Source: Clostridiales bacterium FE2011
GTDB taxonomy: Bacteria; Bacillota; Clostridia; Christensenellales; Aristaeellaceae
NCBI GenBank assembly: GCA_017569305.1
Contig: CP069418.1
Span: 744,001 to 808,000, forward strand
Direction: 5' to 3'
Length of the DNA stretch: 64,000 nucleotides
The notes below the pieces were generated by a model. It was not told where the DNA came from, made no database searches, and saw only the letters and a program-made list of their open reading frames with translations. The position numbers and the translations under genes were made by a program. Each line of letters begins with the position of its first letter. Within the stretch, counting starts at the first letter, position 1. This document shows positions 17,871 through 31,954 of this stretch, one piece after another.

Positions 17871-20315
17871 TTATCTCAGTTCTTCCACAACGCCTGCGAT
17901 ATCCGCGTCTTCCGTCAGCGGCCGGACGTATCCTTCCAGCAGTTTCGCCTTCTCGCTCAGTCCCCGGGAACGGGGATTCAGGAAAATCCGGCACTTTCCC
18001 CGGCCGTTCCGCGCCTCCTGGATCAGGTTCATGGCCGGCGCGTTGCCGTCAAAGGCCAGCAGTACGGAGTTCATACGCTTGAAGATCTCATAGGCAAAGC
18101 TCTTGTACAGACCCATTCCGGAGCTTTCAATGGAGATCCGTACCGATACGCCGGCCTCCTGCAGCCGCTTCTTCTCAGCCCGGCTGATCCGTGTAGGCAC
18201 AATGGCAAAAATCCGGAACCGTCCCCGGTTCCTCGCGGCCAGGCGGCCCTCCAGCCCCGTCAGGCTGTGGCCGATCACAAAGAAGGTCTTGGCCGGATCC
18301 AGGGTGTCCAGCAGCCGGTCAATCATCTGCTGATCCTCTTCCCGGATCACCGTCCGGTGTCCGCTGTGGTTAAAGCTGCCGCCCGCCACCACTACCGGGA
18401 ACAGGCCTTCCGGCAGCGGCGCAATCAGTTCCTTCAGCTCCTCCGCCGCGTCAATCCGTCCGGATTCCTTCCACAGGTCCTGGGTGATCCGCGGCGTCTC
18501 CTCCAGCCTGCGCTGGTACCACTTTTCCGCGTCTCCGGCACCGCAGTCCTCCCGGAACGCCGCCATCCGCTGCTCAAAGACCTGCCGGCTCCGCTGCAGG
18601 ATCCGTTCATCCGCCCGGCGCATCTTCTTCAGTTCCTCAAAGCTCAGCCCCAGCAGTTTTTCCAGGGAGAGTTCCTCATCAATGGAATCCGTTCCGTACA
18701 GGGCACCGCCGTCGGTTCCCTGTACGCAGGCAATGCCCGCCCGCAGGTACCGGCGGAGCGGATGGTTGTCCAGCCGGGAAAGGTTGTTCAGCCGCACATT
18801 GGAAGTGATCTGGAATTCCAGCGTCACGCCCAGTTCCTTGATGTCCTCCAGCAGCTTCCTGCCCCGGGCTGTCTTCAGGTCGCAGGTGTACAGACCATGG
18901 CCGATCCGCAGGGCTGGCATGGGCTGTCCGGGCGCCAGTGCTTCCTTCACGCAGTCAATACTGTTGGCCACGTTGTCCCTCAGGGAGTCATTCTCGCCCG
19001 CGTGAATCCGGATCACAAAGCCGTCGTGTTCTCCCGCGATCCGGACCAGTTCCCGTATCACCGCCCGCAGTTCCAGGATGCTGTTGATTTCCTCACCGAT
19101 GATATCGCTTCCGGCCACATAGGGATCCCCGGCTATCGCCCGGAGGATCTGCAGGTTGTCCGCCAGGTAGTCGTTCGGGGTAATCCTGTCCCGGATAATG
19201 GTCAGCGGTATCCGGCGGATACCGGCCAGGAACCGGAGCATCACCCCGGTCTCCCGGTTCACAGCCGGCATCACTTCATGGATTTCCCGCAGTCTTGCAG
19301 CGAACAGATCCCGGTTCAGCAGGGCCGTATCCGAAATTTCCGCGTACTCAATCCCCCTGCGGCGGTATTCCCGGGCAATCCAGAGCAGCAGGTCCTGGTA
19401 CAGGGTGTTGCTTCCGAAGCGTTCCGTTTCCCGGTCCCGGCGCATCTGCTCCGCGTAAGCCAGCACTTCCCGGTCCGGGATCAGGGCCAGGTTGATCCCG
19501 CTGAAGGGATCCTCTGCCGGCACTCCCTTGGTAAACACATAGCGGTACAGGTATACCTTTTCCAGGTCCGCGAACACCGCCTGTCCGTCCTTGGGGATGG
19601 TCAGGGAGTTCCGGATCCGGTCAATGTTATACTGGGCGTCCGTAGGATTTCCCAGGATCAGCTCCGCAAAATTGATAAAGGTATGGTCGTCAATCCGCCG
19701 GTCCCGGTACTTGCCGGTCAGGCCGGTTTCTCCCAGCTTTTTCTCCGTTTCAGCCCGGCGCTTTTCCAGCTTTGCTGTCTGGGACGAGTCACACTTCAGT
19801 CCCAGTTTTTTAATGTAGTAATAGGGATAGCGCAGCTGCCGCACAATGCCCAGGGCAATCAGCGCGTCCGGCGGCAGGTTGCCGTTCATGTGCGTATGCA
19901 GGTCCGTATGGAACTTGCACTCGCTGCGGATATAGGTTTTCACGATCGTCTTGGCCACCCCGAGCCGGTAGTCCCGGGTCTGGCTCATCAGGGTTTTGGA
20001 AATGGCGGGAATCGAAGCCTTCATTTCCACCCTGCCGTCCGGGAAAATATTGGCGATCTTCGTGTTCCCCAGCCGCAGGATATACATTTTACGGTTATCC
20101 CCGTCATAGTAACAGGGGATCTCATCCCGGATCACCTTCAGTCCCCGGTCATCCTCCTCTGTCTGCAGGCCGCACAGCCTGGCCAGGTTGGTGATCAGGT
20201 TGCCGGTATGGTGATTCGGCGTCCGGATGGTATAAAACAGGCGGTCTCCCTCCATGCAGAGGTCGACCGCAATATCCTTTTCTTTATCGAGATAGAACTG
20301 CTGAAAAAAGATCAT
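17871..20315 (-). CDS. Adenosine-deaminase-like amidohydrolase fused to a Rossmann/SLOG-like C-terminal domain
   Basis: 814 residues, over twice the length of ordinary adenosine deaminases. Residues 1-130 are an unrecognised N-terminal region. Residues 135-560 carry the deaminase metal and catalytic set: HTH at 140-142 in DLHTHMNGNL, HAGE at 438-441, GHG at 472-474 and D535 in VQGTDGGALYGTD. The second Asp of the usual TDD motif is Gly, so base specificity may differ. Residues 635-790 alternate strand and helix with VVVAGGSFNHSG, FVIGHSLTGLEG, AIVPTRIS and VLLAFDGNAPAMNLIQEA. These look like a nucleotide-binding Rossmann-type (possibly SLOG) domain. Own promoter at 20361-20389. Stand-alone gene; a role in nucleotide sensing or phage defence is conjecture. 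Confidence 0.75.
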   Translation of the reverse strand: MIFFQQFYLDKEKDIAVDLCMEGDRLFYTIRTPNHHTGNLITNLARLCGLQTEEDDRGLKVIRDEIPCYYDGDNRKMYILRLGNTKIANIFPDGRVEMKASIPAISKTLMSQTRDYRLGVAKTIVKTYIRSECKFHTDLHTHMNGNLPPDALIALGIVRQLRYPYYYIKKLGLKCDSSQTAKLEKRRAETEKKLGETGLTGKYRDRRIDDHTFINFAELILGNPTDAQYNIDRIRNSLTIPKDGQAVFADLEKVYLYRYVFTKGVPAEDPFSGINLALIPDREVLAYAEQMRRDRETERFGSNTLYQDLLLWIAREYRRRGIEYAEISDTALLNRDLFAARLREIHEVMPAVNRETGVMLRFLAGIRRIPLTIIRDRITPNDYLADNLQILRAIAGDPYVAGSDIIGEEINSILELRAVIRELVRIAGEHDGFVIRIHAGENDSLRDNVANSIDCVKEALAPGQPMPALRIGHGLYTCDLKTARGRKLLEDIKELGVTLEFQITSNVRLNNLSRLDNHPLRRYLRAGIACVQGTDGGALYGTDSIDEELSLEKLLGLSFEELKKMRRADERILQRSRQVFEQRMAAFREDCGAGDAEKWYQRRLEETPRITQDLWKESGRIDAAEELKELIAPLPEGLFPVVVAGGSFNHSGHRTVIREEDQQMIDRLLDTLDPAKTFFVIGHSLTGLEGRLAARNRGRFRIFAIVPTRISRAEKKRLQEAGVSVRISIESSGMGLYKSFAYEIFKRMNSVLLAFDGNAPAMNLIQEARNGRGKCRIFLNPRSRGLSEKAKLLEGYVRPLTEDADIAGVVEELR

Positions 20316-21739: not shown

Positions 21740-22663
21740 TTAATCATTATCAGCAAAAACCGGAATCCCGTCCTCTGTATACGCTACCCCGCGCAGGAAG
21801 CAGTGCCTGTTCGGATCGCTGAGGGCGTCCCCGTGAAAGCCGGGATAAGGCCTGGCATGGAACACAATCAGGTCCCGGCCTTTCTCGTCCACGGTAAAGG
21901 AATTATGTCCCGGTCCGTATAAGCCGTTCTTTTCCTCGGTCACCATCACCGGAACCGGCGATTTGATCCACTCTTCCGGATCCAGCGGGTCTCCGCCCTC
22001 CTTCAGCGTCAGCAGGCCTACCGCATACCGCTCATCCGTGGCGCTTCCGGAATAGGTCAGAAACAACCGTCCGTTATGGATGAGGCAGGCAGGCCCTTCG
22101 TTCACCAGGTATCCCTGGCACTCCCAGTCATACTCGGGAATGCTCAGTCTCACCGCCGGCAGCTTCAGCTCCAGCGCGTTTTTCATTTCCGCAATATACA
22201 GGTTGCTGTTTCCGGGAATCTCATAATCCCGCTGTGCCCAGATAAAATACCGTTTCCCGTCGTAGGATACTGTAGTGGAATCCAGGGAAAAGCTCTCCCA
22301 TCCGGTATCAATCCTTCCCTTCTCGGTAAAACCGCCGGAAAACGGATCTGCCTGATCATTTTCCAACGCATAGATCCTGTGATCATAAACGCCGGATTCA
22401 TCCGCTCCCCGCCTGGCCGCGGCAAAGTACACATACCATTTTCCGTCCACAAAGTGCAGTTCCGGCGCCCAGATATTGCAGCTCATCGGGCCTTTCTCAT
22501 GCCGGGACCAGATAATCTTTTCCACGGCGTCAGGCAGTTCCTCCAGGGTTCTTGCCTTCCGCAGGATAATCCGGTCAAACTCCGGGGCAGAAGCCGTAAA
22601 GTAATACCAGCCGTCCTTGCGGATGATATAGGGATCCGCCCGTTGTTCAATAAACGGTTTCAT
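21740..22663 (-). CDS. GH43 glycosidase, exo-arabinofuranosidase-like, cytoplasmic
   Basis: 307 residues forming a single five-bladed propeller with no signal peptide, so it should act on imported oligosaccharides. Catalytic-region motifs are RADPYIIRKDGWYYF (general base Asp), SLDSTTV (pKa-modulating Asp) and VNEGPACL (general acid Glu), plus IWAPELHFVDGKWYVYFA and GPGHNSF. The pattern resembles GH43 subfamily 26 exo-alpha-1,5-arabinofuranosidases. Its ATG overlaps the stop of the secreted GH43 gene (ATGA), and it is the last gene of the arabinan operon. Confidence 0.9.
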   Translation of the reverse strand: MKPFIEQRADPYIIRKDGWYYFTASAPEFDRIILRKARTLEELPDAVEKIIWSRHEKGPMSCNIWAPELHFVDGKWYVYFAAARRGADESGVYDHRIYALENDQADPFSGGFTEKGRIDTGWESFSLDSTTVSYDGKRYFIWAQRDYEIPGNSNLYIAEMKNALELKLPAVRLSIPEYDWECQGYLVNEGPACLIHNGRLFLTYSGSATDERYAVGLLTLKEGGDPLDPEEWIKSPVPVMVTEEKNGLYGPGHNSFTVDEKGRDLIVFHARPYPGFHGDALSDPNRHCFLRGVAYTEDGIPVFADND

Positions 22664-24057
22664 CGGGAAGTTTCCTCCTCATGTATCGTTTCCTCGCTGA
22701 GCCAGATGCATTCGCCCTCCCCGCTGATGGCGGAAATACTCATGACCCGGCCTCCCCGTTCATCGTCCGTCTGCCAGAGGGCCACCCCGTCATAACAGAC
22801 GCCGTCCAGCGTCAGGTTTACCCGGCCGTCCTCCAGCGCGCAGCTTCCCCGGTCATCCAGCCTGCCGTCCTTCAGGGTGATTCTTTCGGAAACCTTCGGA
22901 GCCTTGTTGCTGTCGGTTTCATGCCGGATCAGGTTATAGACTCCCTCCGGCAGTTCCGTCACCGGCTCAAAGGTCTCCCCCTGGTAACTCATCGGCATCA
23001 CCAGCGGCCATCCGTCCGCGGACAGCATCATCGGCCGGATCTGCATGGCAAACCACCAGTCAGCCAGCTTCTGGGTCCGGGTATGATGGCACAGCCAGAG
23101 CCTTTCCCCGTCCACTGCAACGGAACAGTGACCGGGAGCTTTGATTCCGAGAGAAGTGCCGTTGTCATGCTGCAGCTGATAGCCGCCCATCAGTTTGACA
23201 CCGATCCGGCTTTCATTCGCCGCCACAAGGTCCGTCATCTGCCGCCCGTTGGCGTCCAGATACGGACCTTCGATTGTCCGCGAGCGGCCCACCCGGATGT
23301 TGTAGTCCTCCAGCAGCGAGCCGTAGGAAACGAAAAGATAATAGTATTCTGTCTGCGGCAGCCAGATCAGATAGCTGCCCTCTGCCCTGCAGCCCCGGGA
23401 ACCGGCGATCCGCACCGGTTCGCCTTCCGCGAACCCGTTCTCATCAAGCGCAGTCAGCCAGATGCCGCCGAAGAAGCTGCCCCAGGTCATGTACTGTTTT
23501 CCGGATGGATCCGTAAAAATGCATGGATCAATCGCGTTCGGTTTTGCCGAGGCACCGGCGTCGCTGCGGATCACAATCCCTTTATCCTCCCAGGAACCCG
23601 TCAGGCTGCCGGATACCGCCATGCCGATCACAGAGCGGCTGGAGCCAAAAGTGGACGCGCTGTAATACATCCGCCACTGGTTTCCGACCTTCACCACGTC
23701 GGGAGCCCAGAGGCCGTCATGTTTCGACGGATTCAGCCTGGCGGCCGCAATCTCTTCGGCGCAGGTTGTTTCATAGTCGTCGAAAGCGGCCCCAAGGTAT
23801 TCCCAGTGAATCAGGTCATCCGAAGCCCGCACCTGGACGCCGCAGCGATGAATATCTCCTGCGCTGGCGTCAGTGGAGAAGACATACCATCTTCCGTCAT
23901 CCCCGCGAACCAGGGAGGGATCATGTGTGTTGACAGCGCCCCAGTCTTCCGGCCGGTTAATCAGCTCGGTGTTTCCCAGGTCACTGAAAGACGCTGCCCG
24001 GCCAGGCGCAGGAACGGCCAGGATCAACGCCGCAAGCAGCATAAGAAAGATTTTCAA
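22660..24057 (-). CDS. Secreted GH43 endo-arabinanase-like enzyme
   Basis: 465 residues. The start is TTG at 24057, with AAGGAG 8 nt upstream and a signal peptide MKIFLMLLAALILAVPAPGRAA. The propeller carries THDPSLVRGDDGRWYVFST (catalytic Asp), KPNAIDPCIFTDPSGKQY (second Asp) and CRAEGSYLIW (acid Glu), with LWAPDVVKV between. The C-terminal 100 residues (ERITLKDGRLDDRGSCALEDG onward) match the small beta-domain of AbnA-type arabinanases. Predicted to cut alpha-1,5-arabinan outside the cell. It follows the permease gene by 23 nt. Confidence 0.9.
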   Translation of the reverse strand: MKIFLMLLAALILAVPAPGRAASFSDLGNTELINRPEDWGAVNTHDPSLVRGDDGRWYVFSTDASAGDIHRCGVQVRASDDLIHWEYLGAAFDDYETTCAEEIAAARLNPSKHDGLWAPDVVKVGNQWRMYYSASTFGSSRSVIGMAVSGSLTGSWEDKGIVIRSDAGASAKPNAIDPCIFTDPSGKQYMTWGSFFGGIWLTALDENGFAEGEPVRIAGSRGCRAEGSYLIWLPQTEYYYLFVSYGSLLEDYNIRVGRSRTIEGPYLDANGRQMTDLVAANESRIGVKLMGGYQLQHDNGTSLGIKAPGHCSVAVDGERLWLCHHTRTQKLADWWFAMQIRPMMLSADGWPLVMPMSYQGETFEPVTELPEGVYNLIRHETDSNKAPKVSERITLKDGRLDDRGSCALEDGRVNLTLDGVCYDGVALWQTDDERGGRVMSISAISGEGECIWLSEETIHEEETSR

Positions 24058-24080
24058 TGCTGACGCTCCTTTGGAAAAGA

Positions 24081-24929
24081 TTATTCCTTGACTGCGGCAA
24101 ACATCATAGATTCGATAATCCACCGCTGGAAGAAACCGTAGATAATCAGCACAGGCACAATCAGCATAACGCTGCCGGCCATAATCCGCGGCACATGGTT
24201 GTTGATGGCATACTGCTCGTTGAATTTGGCGATCATCACGGTAACAGGCTGCCAGGAAGGATTCTTGATAAACAGCGTCGGCGCAAGGTAGTCGTTCCAG
24301 GCCGCGATGAACCAGAGAACGCCATGTGCGCTCAGCGCCGGAATTGTCAAAGGCAGGATGATCTTCCAGTAAATCCGCAGATGGGAGCAGCCGTCAATCT
24401 TCGCGGCTTCCACCAGGGAATCCGAGATTCCGTAAAGGAACTGGCGCAGGAAGAAAATCATCATTACATTGCCGGTCAGCTTCGGCAGAATCAGGGGCCA
24501 GGGGGACTGAAGCAGATTGACCCTGAAAATCCAGAACTGACCGCTGAACAGCACATACTGGGGAACCATGATCGACGGAAACGGAATCATGATGGAGCCC
24601 AGCAGGAAAAGGAACAAAGCGTTCCGGCCCTTATACCGGATCTTGGCGAAGGAATAGGCCGCGGCTACGGATACCAGTGATCCGATAATCACCGGCGGAA
24701 TCGAATACAGGGCTGTATTCAGGAATCCGCGGAGCAGATCGATTTCGCCCCAGATCTGGGTATAGCTTTCCGTTGTCCATACCTGCGGCAGCAGGCCGCC
24801 GATATAAACATGCAGCTTCGGTTTGAACGAGGTGAAAACCATCCACACAAAAGGATAAAGCATCAGTACGGATCCTGCCAGCAGCAGGACAAAAATGACA
24901 ATGTCAACAATCCGTTTTCTTGTTTTCAT
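24081..24929 (-). CDS. Carbohydrate ABC transporter permease (CUT1, MalG type)
   Basis: 282 residues with six membrane helices and the EAA motif EAAKIDGCSHLRIYWKIILP. Partner of the MalF-type permease one base upstream. Predicted to import arabino-oligosaccharides released by the secreted GH43. No ATPase gene is in the operon, so a shared MsmK-like ATPase elsewhere in the genome must energise it, as is common for CUT1 systems. Confidence 0.95.
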   Translation of the reverse strand: MKTRKRIVDIVIFVLLLAGSVLMLYPFVWMVFTSFKPKLHVYIGGLLPQVWTTESYTQIWGEIDLLRGFLNTALYSIPPVIIGSLVSVAAAYSFAKIRYKGRNALFLFLLGSIMIPFPSIMVPQYVLFSGQFWIFRVNLLQSPWPLILPKLTGNVMMIFFLRQFLYGISDSLVEAAKIDGCSHLRIYWKIILPLTIPALSAHGVLWFIAAWNDYLAPTLFIKNPSWQPVTVMIAKFNEQYAINNHVPRIMAGSVMLIVPVLIIYGFFQRWIIESMMFAAVKE

Positions 24930-24930
24930 C

Positions 24931-25866
24931 TCACTTGTCCCCCTTTCCGTTCAGTTTGAACTGGATCAGGGTCAGGATGAACACGATGACCGCCAGGAAG
25001 ACAGCCACAGCACTGCCGTAGCCCGCCTTGGAGTTGACAAACGTCCGGTCATACAGATGGATCACCGTGGTAAAGGTGGAATTGTTCGGTCCGTTGCCGG
25101 AGAACATCAGCCGCGGTTCCACATACATCTGGGATCCGCCGATAACCCCGGTCACGATCAGGTAGAAGGTTACAGGCATCAGCAGCGGCAGCGTAATCTT
25201 CCGGAAGGTCTGCCACCAGTTGGCGCCGTCCACCTGCGCCGCTTCGTAATAGGAACGGGAAATACCCTGCATCCCCGCAATATACAGAATGATGGAACTG
25301 CCCAGGCCTTTCCAGATGGCCATGATCATAATGACCCATTTGGTATAGCCGGCATGACTCATCCAGTTGGGCGGATCTGAAACACCCAGCGCACGGAGTC
25401 CTTCATTGATGATCCCCACGTCTGAGTTAAAGATCTGCTGGAAAACGAAGGTGATGGCTACCACGCTGGAAATCACAGGCACATAATAAACCACACGGAA
25501 GACCTTCTCATAGTGCGTTCCCCGGTTCATGGCATAAGCCAGCAGCAGGGAAATCGCCAGGCCGATGGGGATACCGATCATGTAGTAAAAGGTATTCCCC
25601 AGGCTCTGCCAGAAGAGCTTGTTATTGAACATGTCAATATAGTTCTTCAGGCCCACATTCTTTGCTTTCTCAATCGCCTGTCCCATAGGCCAGGAAGTAA
25701 AACTGGCATACACGGACATACCGAAGGGGATCAGCACAAAAATCAGCATACCGATCAGCGGGATCGTGATCAGGCCGTATCCCCAGAGGGCATCTTTCTG
25801 CCGGTAATTCAGCCCGCACCGGCGCAGATCCGGTGCTGCCACAGTTGTTCCTGCAGTCCGCTGCAT
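24931..25866 (-). CDS. Carbohydrate ABC transporter permease (CUT1, MalF type)
   Basis: 311 residues, six membrane helices, EAA motif EAAQVDGANWWQTFRKITLP. The start is ATG 25866, with AGGAAG 7 nt upstream; a TTG 17 codons earlier lies close to the intergenic hairpin. Second gene of the operon after the binding protein, from which it is separated by a 12-bp hairpin (25927-25954). Confidence 0.94.
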   Translation of the reverse strand: MQRTAGTTVAAPDLRRCGLNYRQKDALWGYGLITIPLIGMLIFVLIPFGMSVYASFTSWPMGQAIEKAKNVGLKNYIDMFNNKLFWQSLGNTFYYMIGIPIGLAISLLLAYAMNRGTHYEKVFRVVYYVPVISSVVAITFVFQQIFNSDVGIINEGLRALGVSDPPNWMSHAGYTKWVIMIMAIWKGLGSSIILYIAGMQGISRSYYEAAQVDGANWWQTFRKITLPLLMPVTFYLIVTGVIGGSQMYVEPRLMFSGNGPNNSTFTTVIHLYDRTFVNSKAGYGSAVAVFLAVIVFILTLIQFKLNGKGDK

Positions 25867-25926
25867 GTTTCCGCTTCCTTTCTTAAATGGTCCCCGGCCT
25901 TCCGCCGCTGTAGTCAAACAAGAAGG

Positions 25927-25954
25927 GAAGGAGGAGGGGAATCCCTCCTCCTTC
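25927..25954 (-). other. Intergenic stem-loop between sugar-binding protein and permease genes
   Basis: Perfect 12-bp repeat GAAGGAGGAGGG/CCCTCCTCCTTC (25927-25938, 25943-25954) with a 4-nt loop, 30 nt after the binding-protein stop. Likely limits transcription into the permease genes or protects the upstream message. Confidence 0.75.
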
Positions 25955-25983
25955 GAATTAAAAAGGAGTTACTCCGTCAGTAG

Positions 25984-27450
25984 TCAGGGTTTCATGGCTT
26001 CCATATCGTCAATGGCGTCATTCAGCAGCTGCTGAGCGTTATCCTGGATGGATTCGCAGTAGGTGCGCACGTCCATGGGGGTCACGCCCAGGTCGCTCTT
26101 CTCGTAGAAGCTCCAGACGCTCGTCAGGCCGGTGTTGAAGCCTTCAGTCAGCCACAGGTCATTCCAGGTCATGGAGGACACTTCGCGGTGACCGTTCTGG
26201 CCTTCCAGCATCTTCACGAACACCACGCGGGTTTCCGGGAAGTAGCTGTCATCGGTCAGGTACTCGCCTTCAGCCATTTCCTTCAGGTTCGGAAGCTGGC
26301 CGCCCTTCTTGGCCAGGAAGCGCTGCACTTCGGGATCCGCGCTCATGGCGTAGGCGAACTTCGCGGCCAGTTCCGGATACTTGGACTGGGCGCTGATGCA
26401 GAAGCCGACGGAATCCAGACGGCCGACCCACTTGTCCTGGCGTTCTTCGATGGACAGGGAGGCGTATTCGTCGCTGATGGGCCAGGGAGCTACGTCAAAG
26501 TCAAACCAGCTCTTGCCGGGGTTCACAGCTTCATCTTCCTCGATCGCCTGGAAGGCGCCCACGTCCCACGTTCCGCAGGGGAAGAAAGCGCAGCGGCCGG
26601 CCAGGAACTTCAGGTAACCGGAGGTTTCGTCGGTGGAGGAGCCGGAGCCGCCCACTTCAACGATCTTCATGAAGCCTTCATAGCCTTCGATGAACTTATC
26701 CGTGTTGAACAGCACTTCCGTGCAGTCCTCGTTCAGGTAATCTCCGCCGGCGCCCCAGATAAAGGGCTTCAGGCAGAAGTCTTCCCACAGGTGGGTGCCG
26801 TAAACCTGCTTGGAACCGGCGGTCTCGGGCAGGGTTTCGTCTTCAAAGGTGCAGATCTTGCACAGGTTGGCAAACTCGGTGAAGGTATAAACCGGCAGGT
26901 TGCCGTTTTCATCGATTTCAGGATAGAAAGGCAGGATACCGTCTGCAATCGCCTGCTTGATCTCAGCGTCGCGCTTGCGGATGATCGCCTTGTTCACGGT
27001 CATGGAAACAGCGGAGAAGTCCTTTGGGAGGCCGTAGATCTTGCCTTCGCCCAGCTTGTTGGACTCTTCGTCATACTTGTACAGGTTCAGCGCTTCGGGC
27101 CATATATTGCCCAGCGTGCTCACATCCAGGTAATCGTCCAGGGCGGCCACAGCGCCGGTCCAGACGCGCTTGCGAACGTCGCCAACGCCCAGGTAGAAGA
27201 CATCAGGGGCATTGCCCGCGGTCAGGGACGCTTCGAGTTCGGGCCAGTACTGGTCGCCGGAGACCCGGAAGTCCACGATGCAGTTGTTTTCTTCTTCAAA
27301 CTGCTTGATCACTTCTTCATACATGGCCTTCTCGTGTTCCTGGGCAAAGGTGTTCACGACGATGGTGGGTTTGTCTTCCGCAACCGCAAATACGGTCCAC
27401 AGGGTGGACAGCAGGCATACGGTCAGCAGCACAGCCAACAGTTTCTTCAT
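25984..27450 (-). CDS. Carbohydrate ABC transporter substrate-binding protein
   Basis: 488-residue extracellular solute-binding protein (SBP_bac_1) for the CUT1 importer. The signal peptide is MKKLLAVLLTVCLLSTLWTVFAVAED. The only Cys in it (C12) is preceded by Val and sits in the hydrophobic core, so there is no lipobox. Family features are VVNTFAQEHEKAMYEEVIKQF, SLTAGNAPDVFYLG and AGRCAFFPCGTWDVG. First gene of the locus, with AGGAGG before the ATG and a 157-nt leader carrying LacI-type operators. Confidence 0.93.
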   Translation of the reverse strand: MKKLLAVLLTVCLLSTLWTVFAVAEDKPTIVVNTFAQEHEKAMYEEVIKQFEEENNCIVDFRVSGDQYWPELEASLTAGNAPDVFYLGVGDVRKRVWTGAVAALDDYLDVSTLGNIWPEALNLYKYDEESNKLGEGKIYGLPKDFSAVSMTVNKAIIRKRDAEIKQAIADGILPFYPEIDENGNLPVYTFTEFANLCKICTFEDETLPETAGSKQVYGTHLWEDFCLKPFIWGAGGDYLNEDCTEVLFNTDKFIEGYEGFMKIVEVGGSGSSTDETSGYLKFLAGRCAFFPCGTWDVGAFQAIEEDEAVNPGKSWFDFDVAPWPISDEYASLSIEERQDKWVGRLDSVGFCISAQSKYPELAAKFAYAMSADPEVQRFLAKKGGQLPNLKEMAEGEYLTDDSYFPETRVVFVKMLEGQNGHREVSSMTWNDLWLTEGFNTGLTSVWSFYEKSDLGVTPMDVRTYCESIQDNAQQLLNDAIDDMEAMKP

Positions 27451-27507
27451 GGGTTCTTCCTCCTTTTATTTCTGAAGAGCATTTCGCGCTCATCATTCCC
27501 TGAGTTT

Positions 27508-27599
27508 ACATTAACGTTAATGTTGTACGACGTTTTGATACCAACTTGTTCTCTCATGTAGTTTATGGGAAATATTAACGTTAACATTATCGTTAATGT
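27508..27599. promoter_or_regulatory. Three LacI-type operators
   Basis: O1 ACATTAACGTTAATGT at 27508-27523 is a perfect 16-bp CG-centred palindrome. O3 ACATTATCGTTAATGT at 27584-27599 differs at one position. O2 at 27572-27587 has the core TTAACGTTAA. O2 and O3 lie just after the predicted start of transcription; O1 lies 64 bp further into the leader, which would allow looping. The adjacent LacI-family regulator is the obvious ligand. Confidence 0.8.
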
Positions 27600-27613
27600 T
27601 GTTCGGTGATGAC

Positions 27614-27643
27614 AATATAACACTGGTTTTATTCCTCTGTCAA
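27614..27643 (-). promoter_or_regulatory. Promoter of the arabinan-utilisation operon
   Basis: Minus-strand TTGACA (27638-27643), 18-nt spacer, TATATT (27614-27619). Transcription should start near 27607, directly upstream of the two clustered operators. Confidence 0.8.
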
Positions 27644-27654
27644 GCCCTAAATTT

Positions 27655-27683
27655 TTGATTTTTTAAAAAATGTATGGTAGGAT
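27655..27683 (+). promoter_or_regulatory. Promoter of the LacI-family regulator gene
   Basis: TTGATT (27655-27660), 17-nt spacer, TAGGAT (27678-27683), back to back with the arabinan operon promoter and 36 nt before the chosen ATG. Confidence 0.55.
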
Positions 27684-27718
27684 GTGTTCATCATCTTGGA
27701 AATGGAAGTGCAGCATAC

Positions 27719-28711
27719 ATGGCCAGGGACAACAGCCGGGTAACCCTGCAGGATATCGCGAAAGCTACGGGTTTTACTGTTAATACCGTATCGCGCGCCT
27801 TGAAAAATAAAGAAGATATCAGCCGGGACACCTGCCTGCATATCCAGAACGTCGCCCGGGAAATGGGATACGTCCGTAACTATATTGCCAGTTCCCTCCG
27901 TTCCGGCCGGACAAAAACCATCGCCATGATTGCCGGTTCCATGATGAACCCCTTCTACGCTGTTCTGGGTGACCTGATCCAGCAGGAAGCTGTTCGTCTT
28001 GGATACAGCCTGATGATCCTGGGCTCCCGCGACGACCCGGAAACCGAAAGCCGCATGGTGGAAATGGCCCTGTCCCGCCAGGTGGACGGCGTACTGATCA
28101 CCCCCTGTGCCATTGACTCCCCCGCACTGGAGCTGCTTCGTTCCTCCGGGATTCCCTTTGTCCTGCTCAGCCGTTACCTGACGGGCGCACAGGATGACTG
28201 CGTCATCTGTGACGATGCCCAGGGCGGCCGTCTGGCTGCAAGCCATCTGATTGAACGCGGTCACAAAAACCTGGCCATGATTTCCTTCCGTCACGTGATT
28301 TTCTCTTCCCAGAAGCGTTTTGAAGGCTTCCAGCAGGCCTGTCTGGATGCCGGCATTCCGGAAGGAAACATTCACTACGCCGAGCCTGAAAACGAGCAGG
28401 AAATCCTGAAACAGCTTCAGTCCTGGCAGGAGGAAGGCGTCACCGGTCTCTTCTCCTTCTGCGATGTGGAAGCCTGGAGTATCATAACCATGATGGAAAA
28501 TGCGGGAATGAACCGCAGTTTCGGCCTTGTGGGCTTTGACAACATCATGCGGTATATCAACTTCCCCAAGCCCATCTGTACGATTGATCCCAACCTGCGG
28601 GAAGAGGCGGTTACCGCCATCGATCTGCTCCGGAAAAGGATCCATGATCCTTCCCTTCCGCCCCAGCAGGTTGTCCTTCCCGTCTCCCTGATCTGCCGCG
28701 GCAGCTGCTGA
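27719..28711 (+). CDS. LacI-family transcriptional regulator of the arabinan locus
   Basis: 330 residues. The N-terminal helix-turn-helix is VTLQDIAKATGFTVNTVSRALKNKEDIS, the hinge runs near residue 50-60, and the sugar-binding domain has TKTIAMIAGSMMNPFYAVLG and GLVGFDNIMRYINFP. The start is placed at the ATG giving MARDNSRVTL, the usual distance before the HTH, with GGAAG 10 nt upstream. An ATG at 27674 would lie inside the promoter. Divergent from the importer/GH43 operon and very likely its repressor, responding to an arabino-oligosaccharide or arabinose. Confidence 0.93.
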   Translation: MARDNSRVTLQDIAKATGFTVNTVSRALKNKEDISRDTCLHIQNVAREMGYVRNYIASSLRSGRTKTIAMIAGSMMNPFYAVLGDLIQQEAVRLGYSLMILGSRDDPETESRMVEMALSRQVDGVLITPCAIDSPALELLRSSGIPFVLLSRYLTGAQDDCVICDDAQGGRLAASHLIERGHKNLAMISFRHVIFSSQKRFEGFQQACLDAGIPEGNIHYAEPENEQEILKQLQSWQEEGVTGLFSFCDVEAWSIITMMENAGMNRSFGLVGFDNIMRYINFPKPICTIDPNLREEAVTAIDLLRKRIHDPSLPPQQVVLPVSLICRGSC

Positions 28712-28733
28712 AACTGATACACCTGTATATCAA

Positions 28734-28761
28734 AAAACCGTCCGAAATATCGGACGGTTTT
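28734..28761. terminator. Bidirectional terminator between the LacI regulator and trpZ
   Basis: Perfect 12-bp stem AAAACCGTCCGA/TCGGACGGTTTT with a 4-nt loop, A-run before and T-run after. It serves both convergent genes. Confidence 0.9.
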
Positions 28762-28782
28762 ATCATTCATCAATTATTCAGA

Positions 28783-29577
28783 TCATTCTGCAACGCCCAG
28801 CAGCATCCTGTCGTTGTCCAGCGCCCGGCCGCTCAGCTGGCGGAACTTGTCCGTCAGGTCATTGATCGTCAGGCTGGCCCGTTCTTCGCCGGTCACGTCG
28901 TAGATCACCCGCCCCCGGTCCATCATCAGGGTACGGTTCCCCAGGTCCAGGGCGGACTGCATGTTATGCGTGATCATCAGGCAGGTGATGTGATTCTCTT
29001 CCACAATGCTCCGGGTCAGTGCCAGCACTTTTTCCGCCGTGCCGGGATCCAGGGCCGCCGTATGTTCATCCAGCAGCAGCACCTTCGGTACGTGATAGGT
29101 TGCCATGAGCAGTGTCAGCGCCTGGCGCTGTCCGCCGGAAAGCAGGCCCACCGGCTGGCGCATCCGGTCTTCAAGGCCCATATCCAGCAGGCTCAGGCGA
29201 TCCCGGAAAGCCTTCTTGTCTGCCGCGGAAACCCTGGACAGCCAGCCGCCGTTGCCGGCTGCCAGCGCCAGGTTTTCCTCAATGCTCATATCCGGAGCAC
29301 TGCCCCGCATGGGATCCTGGAACAGGCGGCCGATCTGTCTCGCCCGCTGATGTTCCGGCACCATGGTCACGTTCTTTCCGCCCAGGTAGATCGATCCGGA
29401 ATCCAGTACAAAGCTGCCGCAGATGGCATTGAACAGCGTGGATTTCCCGGCGCCGTTCGCACCGATAATGCTGACGAAATCGCCGTCTTCAATCTTCAGG
29501 GATATGTCAATCAATGCCTTCTTTTCATCCGGCGTCCCGGCATGGAAGGTTTTACAAACGTTCTTCAGTTCCAGCAT
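28783..29577 (-). CDS. trpZ: Tryptophan-type ABC transporter ATP-binding protein
   Basis: 264 residues. Walker A GANGAGKST, signature LSGGQRQA, Walker B VLLLDEHTAALDP, where His replaces the usual Pro of DEP, as is normal in this COG1101 family. The start at ATG 29577 has GGGAGG 8 nt upstream and overlaps the permease stop (ATGA). Last gene of the binding protein-permease-ATPase operon under the Trp T-box. The symbol follows the trpXYZ transporter family; specificity rests on the T-box specifier, not on the protein. Confidence 0.88.
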   Translation of the reverse strand: MLELKNVCKTFHAGTPDEKKALIDISLKIEDGDFVSIIGANGAGKSTLFNAICGSFVLDSGSIYLGGKNVTMVPEHQRARQIGRLFQDPMRGSAPDMSIEENLALAAGNGGWLSRVSAADKKAFRDRLSLLDMGLEDRMRQPVGLLSGGQRQALTLLMATYHVPKVLLLDEHTAALDPGTAEKVLALTRSIVEENHITCLMITHNMQSALDLGNRTLMMDRGRVIYDVTGEERASLTINDLTDKFRQLSGRALDNDRMLLGVAE

Positions 29578-30512
29578 CAGGCATTCCTCCCTTCCCGGGA
29601 AGCCTTCCACCGGCGGATCATCAGCGGAAGCTGTTTCCGCAGATAGGGGCCGGAGATGGCCAGTACCACGATGATGGAAGATACCGCCTTGAGCATAAAG
29701 GCCGGCATATTGAACCGCAGGGCCAGGGCGTATACGATCCGGAAGATCACCGCGCCCAGCACTGCACCCACAGCCCTCAGCGGAATCGGCTTATGCTTTG
29801 CGACAAACACACCGCCGATCAGCAGGCTGGCCAGGGCAACCGTCACCATGCCGGAGCCCATGTTGATATCAAAGCTCTTGGCCTGCTGTGCCATCAGGCA
29901 GCCGCTCAGTCCTGTGAACGCGTTGGAAACACAAAGACCCACAGTGGTCGTGAAAGTGGGATTGATTGAGGAAGATCTAACCATGTCTGCATTGCTTCCT
30001 GTTGCCCGGATCGCCAGGCCCAGCTTGGTCTTCAGGAAGAAGCACAGGAAGCACACCACCAGTGCCACAATAACCAGCATCACAATCAGCGTGCTCTGTC
30101 CTGCCAGCGGGGTCCCCTTCAGCAGGTTCTTCGCCATGGAGAAAATCGTGGTGGTTTTATTCATGGCCAGGGTCGCTTTGTTGCCGGTCAGCGCCATGTT
30201 CACGGAATACAGGGCTGTATTCACCACAATGCCTGCCAGCAGGCTCTGCACACCCATCCTGGTCTGCAGGGTCGCCGTCACAAAGCCGGAAATCATACCC
30301 GCCAGCATAGCTGCCGGAAGCGAAAGCCAGGGATAACCGGCTATCGCCACCAGCGCGCCCACAGCTGCGCCCAGCGTATAGCATCCATCCGTGGACAGGT
30401 CGCACACGTTCAGCATGGAATAGCTCAGGAACAGGCTCAGTACCGTCAGGGAGTTGATCAGGCCCAGTTCCATGGCCGTCTGGCCTAAAGCAAGAATCTT
30501 GTCTATTGTCAT
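29577..30512 (-). CDS. trpY: Tryptophan-type ABC transporter permease
   Basis: 311-residue membrane protein of the branched-chain amino-acid permease superfamily (BPD_transp_2, COG4120), with about eight to nine hydrophobic segments. FLSYSMLNVCDLSTDGCYTLGAAVG near the N-terminus is characteristic. It pairs with the ABC_sub_bind-type binding protein upstream. The start ATG lacks a clear Shine-Dalgarno, and an 11-bp hairpin occupies the gap to the binding-protein gene, so its expression is probably lower. Confidence 0.88.
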   Translation of the reverse strand: MTIDKILALGQTAMELGLINSLTVLSLFLSYSMLNVCDLSTDGCYTLGAAVGALVAIAGYPWLSLPAAMLAGMISGFVTATLQTRMGVQSLLAGIVVNTALYSVNMALTGNKATLAMNKTTTIFSMAKNLLKGTPLAGQSTLIVMLVIVALVVCFLCFFLKTKLGLAIRATGSNADMVRSSSINPTFTTTVGLCVSNAFTGLSGCLMAQQAKSFDINMGSGMVTVALASLLIGGVFVAKHKPIPLRAVGAVLGAVIFRIVYALALRFNMPAFMLKAVSSIIVVLAISGPYLRKQLPLMIRRWKASREGRNA

Positions 30513-30551
30513 AACACACAGCCCGTTATTTCATGATTAGAAAACACCGCA

Positions 30552-30577
30552 GCGGAGGGAAGAACCCTTCCCTCCGC
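30552..30577 (-). other. Intergenic stem-loop between trpX and trpY
   Basis: Perfect 11-bp repeat GCGGAGGGAAG/CTTCCCTCCGC (30552-30562, 30567-30577) with a 4-nt loop, followed on the minus strand after a few bases by TTTTCT. It may act as a partial terminator. Confidence 0.75.
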
Positions 30578-30603
30578 GTTGCTTTGGCAAATCAGGTACG
30601 GAA

Positions 30604-31620
30604 TCACTCAAAGGCTTCCGCCGTGGTGATCTCCTGCACCTTGGTGCAGTAGGGAGCGAAAGCTTCCTTGATCGTTTCAAAGTCGAAGCCAATCGCCGCG
30701 CAGGTTTCGATGTTCACAGTAGCAGTACCGTTGTCGAAAGTCTGCACGGGAGTGGTTGCGGGATCCGCGCCGTCCAGCAGGATCGCGGCAATCATGTCGC
30801 CGGTCACACGGCCCAGGTTGGCATAGTCCACGCCGTAGCCCAGGAAGGCGCCGTTCAGGGCGAAGGAGTCTGCGCCGGTGTAGTGCGGAATCTTCGCTTC
30901 AGCCAGGGTCTCATAAATGGACAGTTCCGCATTCATGATGGTGTTGTCAGTGGGGGTGAAGACAGCGTCCATTTCATCGCTCACAATGGCTTCCGCAGCC
31001 AGCATGACTTCAGAGGCATTGGAACCGGTGTATTCTTTCACTTCAATGCCCTTTTCACCCAGGATTTCCTTCGCGGCAGCGATCGGCGTGGCGGAAGCGT
31101 CTTCAGAGGGATTGTACAGCAGGGCGACCTTCTTCGCGTCAGGATTGGCGGCAAAGATCAGGTTCAGCACTGCGGCAGTATCCAGGTAGTCAGAAGTGCC
31201 GGTCATGTTGGAGCCGGGTTTTTCCAGGCTTTCCACCACTTCTGCCCCGATCGGATCAGATACGGCAGCGAACACCACCGGAATCTTGTTGTCTTCCGTC
31301 ATAGCCTTCATGTTCTGGGCCACGGGGGTCGCGACACCCACCATCAGGTCCACTTCATCCGCGATGAAATCGGCAATGATCTGCTGCATCACGCTGAAAT
31401 CAAGGTTGCAGTTGTCTTCGGCGATTTCAATTGTCACGCCCTTTTCCTGTTCAATCTCGCCCAGCCGTTCACGGATGTTCGCGATGATCTGGTTCAGGCT
31501 CGCGTCATCAACCAGGTTGCAGATGCCGATTTTGAAGCTTGTCTTTTCTTCAGCGGAAACCAGGGAAATCATGGAGAATACCATCATCAGGGAGAGTACC
31601 AGTGCCAGTGCCTTTTTCAT
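30604..31620 (-). CDS. trpX: Tryptophan-type ABC transporter substrate-binding protein
   Basis: 338 residues of the ABC_sub_bind family (PF04392), the type linked to trpXYZ tryptophan importers. The signal peptide is MKKALALVLSLMMVFSMISLVSAEE with no lipobox Cys. Family features are KIGICNLVDDASLNQIIANI, ADFIADEVDLMVGVATP, PVVFAAVSDPIGA and NMTGTSDYLD. The start at ATG 31620 is preceded by AAGGAAGGA. The 5' leader is a T-box riboswitch with a TGG specifier, which assigns tryptophan as the substrate. Confidence 0.9.
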   Translation of the reverse strand: MKKALALVLSLMMVFSMISLVSAEEKTSFKIGICNLVDDASLNQIIANIRERLGEIEQEKGVTIEIAEDNCNLDFSVMQQIIADFIADEVDLMVGVATPVAQNMKAMTEDNKIPVVFAAVSDPIGAEVVESLEKPGSNMTGTSDYLDTAAVLNLIFAANPDAKKVALLYNPSEDASATPIAAAKEILGEKGIEVKEYTGSNASEVMLAAEAIVSDEMDAVFTPTDNTIMNAELSIYETLAEAKIPHYTGADSFALNGAFLGYGVDYANLGRVTGDMIAAILLDGADPATTPVQTFDNGTATVNIETCAAIGFDFETIKEAFAPYCTKVQEITTAEAFE

Positions 31621-31681
31621 TGTTTTGTCCTTCCTTTCATCTGTGGATGTATGAAATTCAGGGGGGATTGAGCCGGAAACA

Positions 31682-31954
31682 AAAAACCTCAGCACACAGG
31701 ATCTCTGTGTACTGAGGCGATTATCTCGCGGTGCCACTCAGTTTGACTCTCCCCGGAGGGAATGCCATCTCATTCATCACGTACCCCTGATACGTGCCGC
31801 CCTGATAACGGGTGCGTCCCCCGTCGTTTCCTACTCATTGCTTTTCGGAACGCCCTCAGGAGCCCATTCACATCCTCCGCACGCGCCGCCGTTCCACTAT
31901 CGGCAGCTCCCTGTACCGTGCCGCGGGGTTGCTACTATTCTCCTTCAATGGTTT
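31682..31954 (-). promoter_or_regulatory. T-box riboswitch, tryptophan specifier
   Basis: Minus-strand leader with the T-box core GAGTGGCACCGCGAGA (about 31727-31742). It is followed by a terminator stem, CCTCAGTACACAG against CTGTGTGCTGAGG, and a run of six T. In Stem I, the specifier region reads GTGAA then TGG then GCTCCTGAG, with TGG at 31864-31866, the tryptophan codon. Uncharged tRNA-Trp should stabilise the antiterminator and switch on the importer. The intervening stems were matched by eye only. Confidence 0.9.

Follow-up and report, generated by a model that had tools for sequence, protein, structure and literature searches.

Within 64,000 nucleotides of the Clostridiales bacterium FE2011 genome (contig CP069418.1, positions 744,001 to 808,000; this whole stretch is hereafter the window), a minus-strand gene encodes an 814-residue protein that joins an adenosine-deaminase barrel to a SLOG-type domain. 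We favor, with about even confidence, the view that this fusion is a predicted nucleotide deaminase of the adenosine-deaminase/amidohydrolase superfamily whose activity is controlled by its C-terminal SLOG domain.

Layout of the fusion protein

The open reading frame had been picked out, with no strand given, in a first-pass annotation made from the sequence alone. It lies on the minus strand, with the following features (AF2, AlphaFold2; pLDDT, predicted local distance difference test).

17871..20315, minus strand: whole gene of the ADA–SLOG fusion, 814 aa (ATG 20315–20313, stop 17873–17871)
19962..20315, minus strand: N-terminal domain, residues 1–118, mixed β/α (AF2 model)
18546..19961, minus strand: adenosine-deaminase TIM barrel, residues 119–590
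19884..19898, minus strand: metal ligands H140 and H142, with N144 (family alignment)
19407..19802, minus strand: helical region with the ~114-residue barrel insertion, about residues 172–303, limits approximate (spacing and secondary structure)
19560..19592, minus strand: loop 242–252 (KDGQAVFADLE), AF2 pLDDT <50, largely invariant
18993..19004, minus strand: H438 (metal) and E441 (catalytic) of the HAGE motif (family alignment)
18897..18899, minus strand: H473 of the RIGHG motif (family alignment)
18708..18713, minus strand: D535 (metal) and G536 (family alignment)
17874..18443, minus strand: C-terminal SLOG-fold domain, residues 625–814 (separate AF2 model, fold searches)

The purine-rich sequence ggaaaggaaaggg stands immediately 5′ of the ATG. 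The plus strand over the same interval is also open, but its frame is unrelated. Three segments are additional to the deaminase core: residues 1–118, the insertion of about 114 residues inside the barrel, and residues 625–814. The annotation had recognized the first and last, and the extra residues are indeed there (about 118–130 in front and 200 behind); the insertion is a third addition. This three-part layout is fixed across the fusion family, and the gene is under purifying selection, with dN/dS of 0.065–0.167 against four relatives.

An intact active site with altered substrate residues

Membership in the A_deaminase superfamily is supported both by the Pfam model PF00962, which scored 54.5 bits over residues 313–566 against a curated cut-off of 27, and by the set of HxH, HAGE, H and D motifs. 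The equivalog model for housekeeping Add (TIGR01430) gave 41.1 bits, well short of its cut-off of 216.55, and nine further NCBIfam matches were all far under theirs. In an alignment of 171 family members (non-redundant at 88% identity, the window's own copy included), H438, E441, H473, D535 and G536 are each present in 171/171. H140 and H142 are each found in 170, the exception being one gapped row. The metal and catalytic set named in the first-pass annotation is thus near-invariant, and the alignment shows a metal active site that is, at this level, intact and conserved.

Two substrate residues are replaced. In mouse ADA, adenosine is contacted at its 5′- and 3′-hydroxyls by Asp19, and a second aspartate, Asp296, belongs to the catalytic site (PMC12669630). 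At the position equivalent to D19 the fusion family has Asn (N144, 167/171) or Ser (4/171), and at the D296 position Gly536 replaces the second Asp of TDD in every member, a substitution that had already been noticed in the window's copy. Our controls were 29 loci encoding other A_deaminase-family proteins of the same phylum. The D19-equivalent position was readable by pattern in 23 of them and was Asp or Glu in 21; the D296-equivalent position, readable in 25, was D in 20, N in 5 and G in none. Judged by these residues, Gly536 is special to the fusion family among the proteins read, and Asn at the same position is not special to ATP deaminases.

TaqCad1 and its close homologs are reported to have Gly and Asn at the Asp19 and Asp296 positions, and TaqCad1 converts ATP to inosine triphosphate (ITP) without deaminating adenosine (PMC12669630). 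Given that both residues are replaced family-wide at the same positions as in TaqCad1, the most likely substrate would be a 5′-phosphorylated adenine nucleotide (AMP, ATP or dATP type), not adenosine.

The C-terminal SLOG domain

Modeled separately by AF2, the C-terminal domain reached a pLDDT of 91.9 and a predicted template modeling score (pTM) of 0.91. Fold searches with this model recovered the SLOG fold (Rossmann-like, of the DprA/LOG/Moco carrier type), including the LOG enzymes 5its and 5zbl (with AMP); no ThsA structure was among the matches listed. The model thus shows a predicted SLOG fold for this domain, as the proposal of a Rossmann/SLOG sensor had anticipated; at the level of sequence, shallow alignments gave no link to DprA or LOG (see below). 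Searches by sequence found no SLOG family in Pfam at E ≤10 (28 members) and no meaningful match of the C-terminal profile among PDB chains, and BFVD viral structures gave no match at E ≤0.001. In the fold search with the whole model, neither CARF, SLOG nor the N-terminal domain was among the matches listed, because the barrel fills the list. Tyr737, Lys738, Ser739, Asn763 and Gln766 are each at least 98% conserved.

The C-terminal domain matched 535 proteins at E ≤1e-3, and the best 120 of these are, to judge from identity, apparently fragments of the fusion family, mostly on short contigs. Within the phylum sample, a single 497-aa open frame (L109, genome G154), with a weak match (E 0.0035, profile 31–143), hints that the domain may occur apart from the fusion.

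The N-terminal domain and the barrel insertion

The N-terminal domain is conserved in the family alignment and contains a near-invariant segment, KTLMSQT (107–113). No PDB chain matched it by sequence at E ≤10, and among 398 genomes of the phylum it was found in two, both with the full fusion. The insertion is apparent from motif spacing: HxH and HAGE are 296 residues apart here and 295–312 apart in 170 members, as against a median of 182 (range 172–231) in 21 controls, which by this measure places about 114 residues in the barrel between the two motifs. Within it, loop 242–252 has the lowest confidence of the AF2 model, yet of its eleven residues seven are the same in 169/171 members or more (K242 in 169, Q245 in 170, and A246, V247, F248, L251 and E252 in 171). 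This loop is a candidate active-site lid.

A possible mechanism and its closest models

The nearest working models for the fusion are Cad1 and ThsA. In Cad1, CARF binds the cyclic oligoadenylates cA4 or cA6 and the hexamer makes ITP (PMC11645235), and the SLOG domain of ThsA binds gcADPR (PMC12948488). By analogy with these, the SLOG domain of the fusion would bind a nucleotide-like or NAD-derived small molecule and turn the barrel on or off, perhaps through a change of oligomeric state. RdrB, too, is extended at its N terminus, and its catalytic core is split by an insertion (PMC9994260). Its insertions 1 and 2 serve as an interface, and on that model the barrel insertion and N-terminal domain of the fusion probably form an oligomer interface and lid. 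A more specific and quite unlikely version would make these proteins of gut Firmicutes single-protein switches: a signal derived from a nucleotide or from NAD is sensed by the SLOG domain, and the barrel converts (d)ATP or another adenine nucleotide to the inosine form, with growth arrest (antiphage) or a signal as the outcome. Such a switch would have barrel additions like those of RdrB and work by the sensor principle of Cad1; its signal could possibly be made by TIR-type enzymes, which occur in 16/25 genomes of the genus.

The fusion differs from each of the closest known systems. In Cad1/CAAD of type III CRISPR (PDB 8z3k, 9c67, 9of1) the CARF domain is N-terminal, whereas the SLOG-like fold here is C-terminal; moreover, the fusion has the barrel insertion and the N-terminal domain, and no cas gene was found among the 18 neighboring proteins of the window (PADLOC and Pfam). 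We rejected Cad1 membership on domain order and on this neighborhood of 18 proteins. The PADLOC model CARF_ADA does align, over residues 312–546, at profile positions 338–551 of 605, outside the CARF part.

RdrB of RADAR (PDB 8hr7) works with the ATPase RdrA, yet no RdrA was detected among the same 18 neighbors (PADLOC, E ≤0.001), as the first-pass annotation had observed, and the dodecamer of RdrB uses an insertion 3, where the fusion has a SLOG domain after the barrel. Alone among the 50 fold matches listed, 8hr7 chain B, taken to be RdrB, aligned from before residue 101 (from residue 33, rmsd 4.8, 10% identity), but no RdrB family profile matched any of 32 members at E ≤10 (PADLOC-DB, which includes RdrB). 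With neither RdrA among the 18 neighbors nor a profile match in these members, RADAR was rejected.

ThsA of Thoeris (SIR2–SLOG) and TRPM MHR1/2 (SLOG) couple the SLOG fold to a SIR2 effector or a channel, the fusion to a deaminase. Housekeeping Add shares the barrel fold and the metal and catalytic residues with the fusion, which differs in its two replaced substrate residues, its three extra segments and its scores below the equivalog cut-offs. The Kongming operon combines KomA with KomB and KomC, HAM1-like and SIR2-type. No such operon is seen around the window's copy, whose 18 neighbors include no Ham1 or SIR2 family (Pfam).

Our literature search found no description of a SLOG–adenosine deaminase fusion, although the SLOG architecture survey (Burroughs 2015) may list one. 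We regard this particular fusion as a variant of sensor-fused deaminases, a kind already known.

Distribution and history

In the source genus, 26 of 37 genomes have the near full-length fusion and three have pieces (G302, G322, G328); in G320 the sole match is to an ordinary deaminase, and the other seven gave none. Of the ten genus genomes with completeness of 90% or more and contamination of 5% or less, nine have the fusion, and it is absent from all 24 genomes sampled from other genera of the order. In the phylum sample it is full-length in 2/299 genomes, the source genome included, and 19 more match the deaminase core only; the N-terminal profile found it in 7/150 genomes sampled from the family of G142. 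A scan of named genomes yielded 75 loci, some of them from Oribacterium, Sharpea, Solobacterium, Lachnospiraceae and Erysipelotrichaceae, with Sharpea azabuensis DSM 18934 and several Oribacterium strains among the carriers. Two protein searches each returned more than 5,500 proteins at E ≤1e-3 from a capped candidate set, among which there may be ordinary deaminases; the 240 listed have lengths of 757–863 residues, and where they bear a name, as few do, it is simply 'adenosine deaminase' or 'hypothetical protein'. One partial C-terminal relative, P0349, is labeled Coriobacteriales, and the family may thus extend outside Firmicutes.

A quick tree with 76 rows places the window's copy inside a 53-row clade with support of 100. 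One row of this clade, L056, is identical as a record to G319 of the genus, and other labels vary (Clostridia, Oscillospiraceae, Blautia). Outside it, rows labeled Lachnospiraceae, Coprobacillaceae and Erysipelotrichaceae interleave, which suggests that the gene was passed horizontally there, with the caveat that branches in this part are flagged as long. Plasmid and phage collections held no full-length relative (the one plasmid match was partial and to an ordinary ADA), and viral contigs no confirmed one.

The source genome (3.56 Mb in a single contig, 97.5% complete) has one copy of the fusion gene, its sole A_deaminase-family match. At least six genus members (G300, G306, G307, G311, G313, G314) have a second such match. 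Three source-genus loci (L179, L180, L181) encode another A_deaminase-like protein, in which SNYR and SDDG motifs take the place of the usual SNV..NTDDP; at two of these loci it is about 500 aa long.

Gene neighborhoods

The window neighbors, by Pfam, are PurA, Tex, QueH, a PALP enzyme, MatE, an AI-2E transporter, a methyltransferase, two GH43 proteins, ABC transporters and LacI; two proteins between the MatE and AI-2E genes had no match over cut-off. PADLOC matches on these neighbors were generic: mad1 on the LacI regulator, mad2 and MTase_II on the methyltransferase, while an ABC ATPase drew mad3, AriA and 13 more. After the divergent methyltransferase, positions 21740–31737 hold the two GH43 genes, an ABC sugar-type transporter, LacI and a second ABC system (with a PF04392 binding protein), all ordinary uptake genes. 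Between 8000 and 32000 no Rfam RNA reached its gathering score. Promoter-like sites were not in excess (3, against a mean of 2.5 and a standard deviation (sd) of 1.8 in shuffles); terminator-like sites were (12, against 4.9, sd 2.1), an excess used for no reading here.

A comparison of 82 loci carried out the survey of homologous neighborhoods that had been proposed for this gene. The window neighbors recur in seven loci (L022–L028), whose fusion genes are all more than 80% identical, and the remaining 75 share none save matches below 33% identity to ABC, MATE and permease genes, counts that are lower bounds since some loci are short. In five Oribacterium-type loci (L068, L069, L073, L083, L085) a gene for a YfbR-like 5′-deoxynucleotidase lies directly upstream of the fusion, with Rep3-type, ParA-type and one more common gene nearby. 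Pfam confirmed YfbR and Rep3 in L068 and a ParA-type ATPase in L069. The gene caller was crude (longest frames win, and some antisense frames appear in high-GC loci), and its counts were used for these five loci only, after rechecking. The stretch is probably a large plasmid or chromid. The neighbors also give a hint of nucleotide metabolism, in which the YfbR-like gene and the fusion may be linked by dAMP-type nucleotides.

At one of the 82 loci a TIR gene stands beside the fusion: at L207:5319–8297 (minus strand; L207 and L056 are one record) it is divergently adjoined by the gene of a 993-aa protein, which has a TIR domain at its N terminus and β-propeller-like repeats. The source genome has its own ThsB-type TIR protein (L208:6260–7160, near 3.284 Mb; PF08937, 6.7e-22), followed by a 139-aa protein that is hydrophobic by eye and has no Pfam match, possibly a small Thoeris-like pair. 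It adjoins genes that read as polysaccharide genes.

Weighing the explanations

Several results weigh against SLOG-controlled nucleotide deamination. Comparisons by hhalign of the C-terminal domain with 28 DprA and with 17 Lysine_decarbox-family sequences, all in shallow alignments, did no better than shuffled or reversed controls. The LOG motif PGGxGTxxE and the DprA RNR motif each occur in 0/171 family members, so that ligand binding cannot be read from motifs, and strand-end loops are not significantly enriched in near-invariant SLOG residues (12/33 versus 45/171 positions, P 0.11). No conserved signal-making neighbor was seen across the 82 loci. As for the substrate, TaqCad1 with both Asp restored showed somewhat higher adenosine activity without being rescued (PMC12669630), and therefore these residues are not the sole determinants; the Asn in 5/25 controls likewise means that a change at the D296 position alone is no proof of another substrate.

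The best of the alternatives, though we think it unlikely, is a housekeeping purine-salvage deaminase acting on adenosine or AMP, with a SLOG domain that has just a structural role or lets purine nucleotides exert mild feedback. The near-universal presence in the genus, the single A_deaminase match of the source genome, the strong purifying selection and the 18 neighbors, a metabolic set that includes genes for transport, carbohydrates and tRNA modification and has generic PADLOC matches, would all fit. However, the scores fall below the ADA equivalog models, two substrate residues are changed, and several genus members have a second A_deaminase match. Moreover, no A_deaminase match over cut-off occurs in the 24 genomes sampled elsewhere in the order, and therefore the activity is dispensable there.

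An improbable reading is that of a single-gene antiphage or stress effector, in which an infection signal binds the SLOG domain, (d)ATP is converted to (d)ITP and growth stops. The closest working analogs, RdrB and Cad1, make ITP in defense (PMC9994260, PMC11645235), and the SLOG ligand of ThsA is likewise consistent with this reading (PMC12948488). So are the patchy occurrence outside the genus, with Lachnospiraceae- and Erysipelotrichales-labeled copies interleaved in the tree, the Rep3/ParA-bearing contigs, the ThsB-type TIR domains in 16/25 genus genomes and the 993-aa TIR protein. Yet only that one locus has a TIR neighbor, TIR matches also occur in the fusion-less genus genomes G304 and G310, and the 18 neighbors include no defense partner. 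The lack of relatives in the phage collection, of confirmed ones in viral contigs and of full-length ones in plasmids also speaks against it, as does near-universality in the genus, unlike most defense genes.

Highly improbable is a bifunctional enzyme whose SLOG domain is itself a hydrolase (a LOG-like phosphoribohydrolase or other N-glycosidase) acting on the deaminated product: LOG enzymes are among the fold matches and the five conserved residues from Tyr737 to Gln766 could be another kind of catalytic set, but a LOG-like hydrolase was rejected because PGGxGTxxE, the motif with LOG's catalytic Glu, is absent from all 171 members (the motif is itself found in only 5/17 Lysine_decarbox-search control proteins, which include non-LOG members).

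Implications

A deaminase controlled by its SLOG domain remains our preferred reading. The SLOG domain, the two lost substrate residues and the two further additions point to a regulated enzyme with another substrate than the database names imply. Named carriers such as Sharpea azabuensis DSM 18934 and the Oribacterium strains allow direct testing. If the reading is true, sensor-controlled nucleotide deamination would extend beyond CRISPR and RADAR, and would be a common chromosomal trait of rumen and gut Firmicutes.
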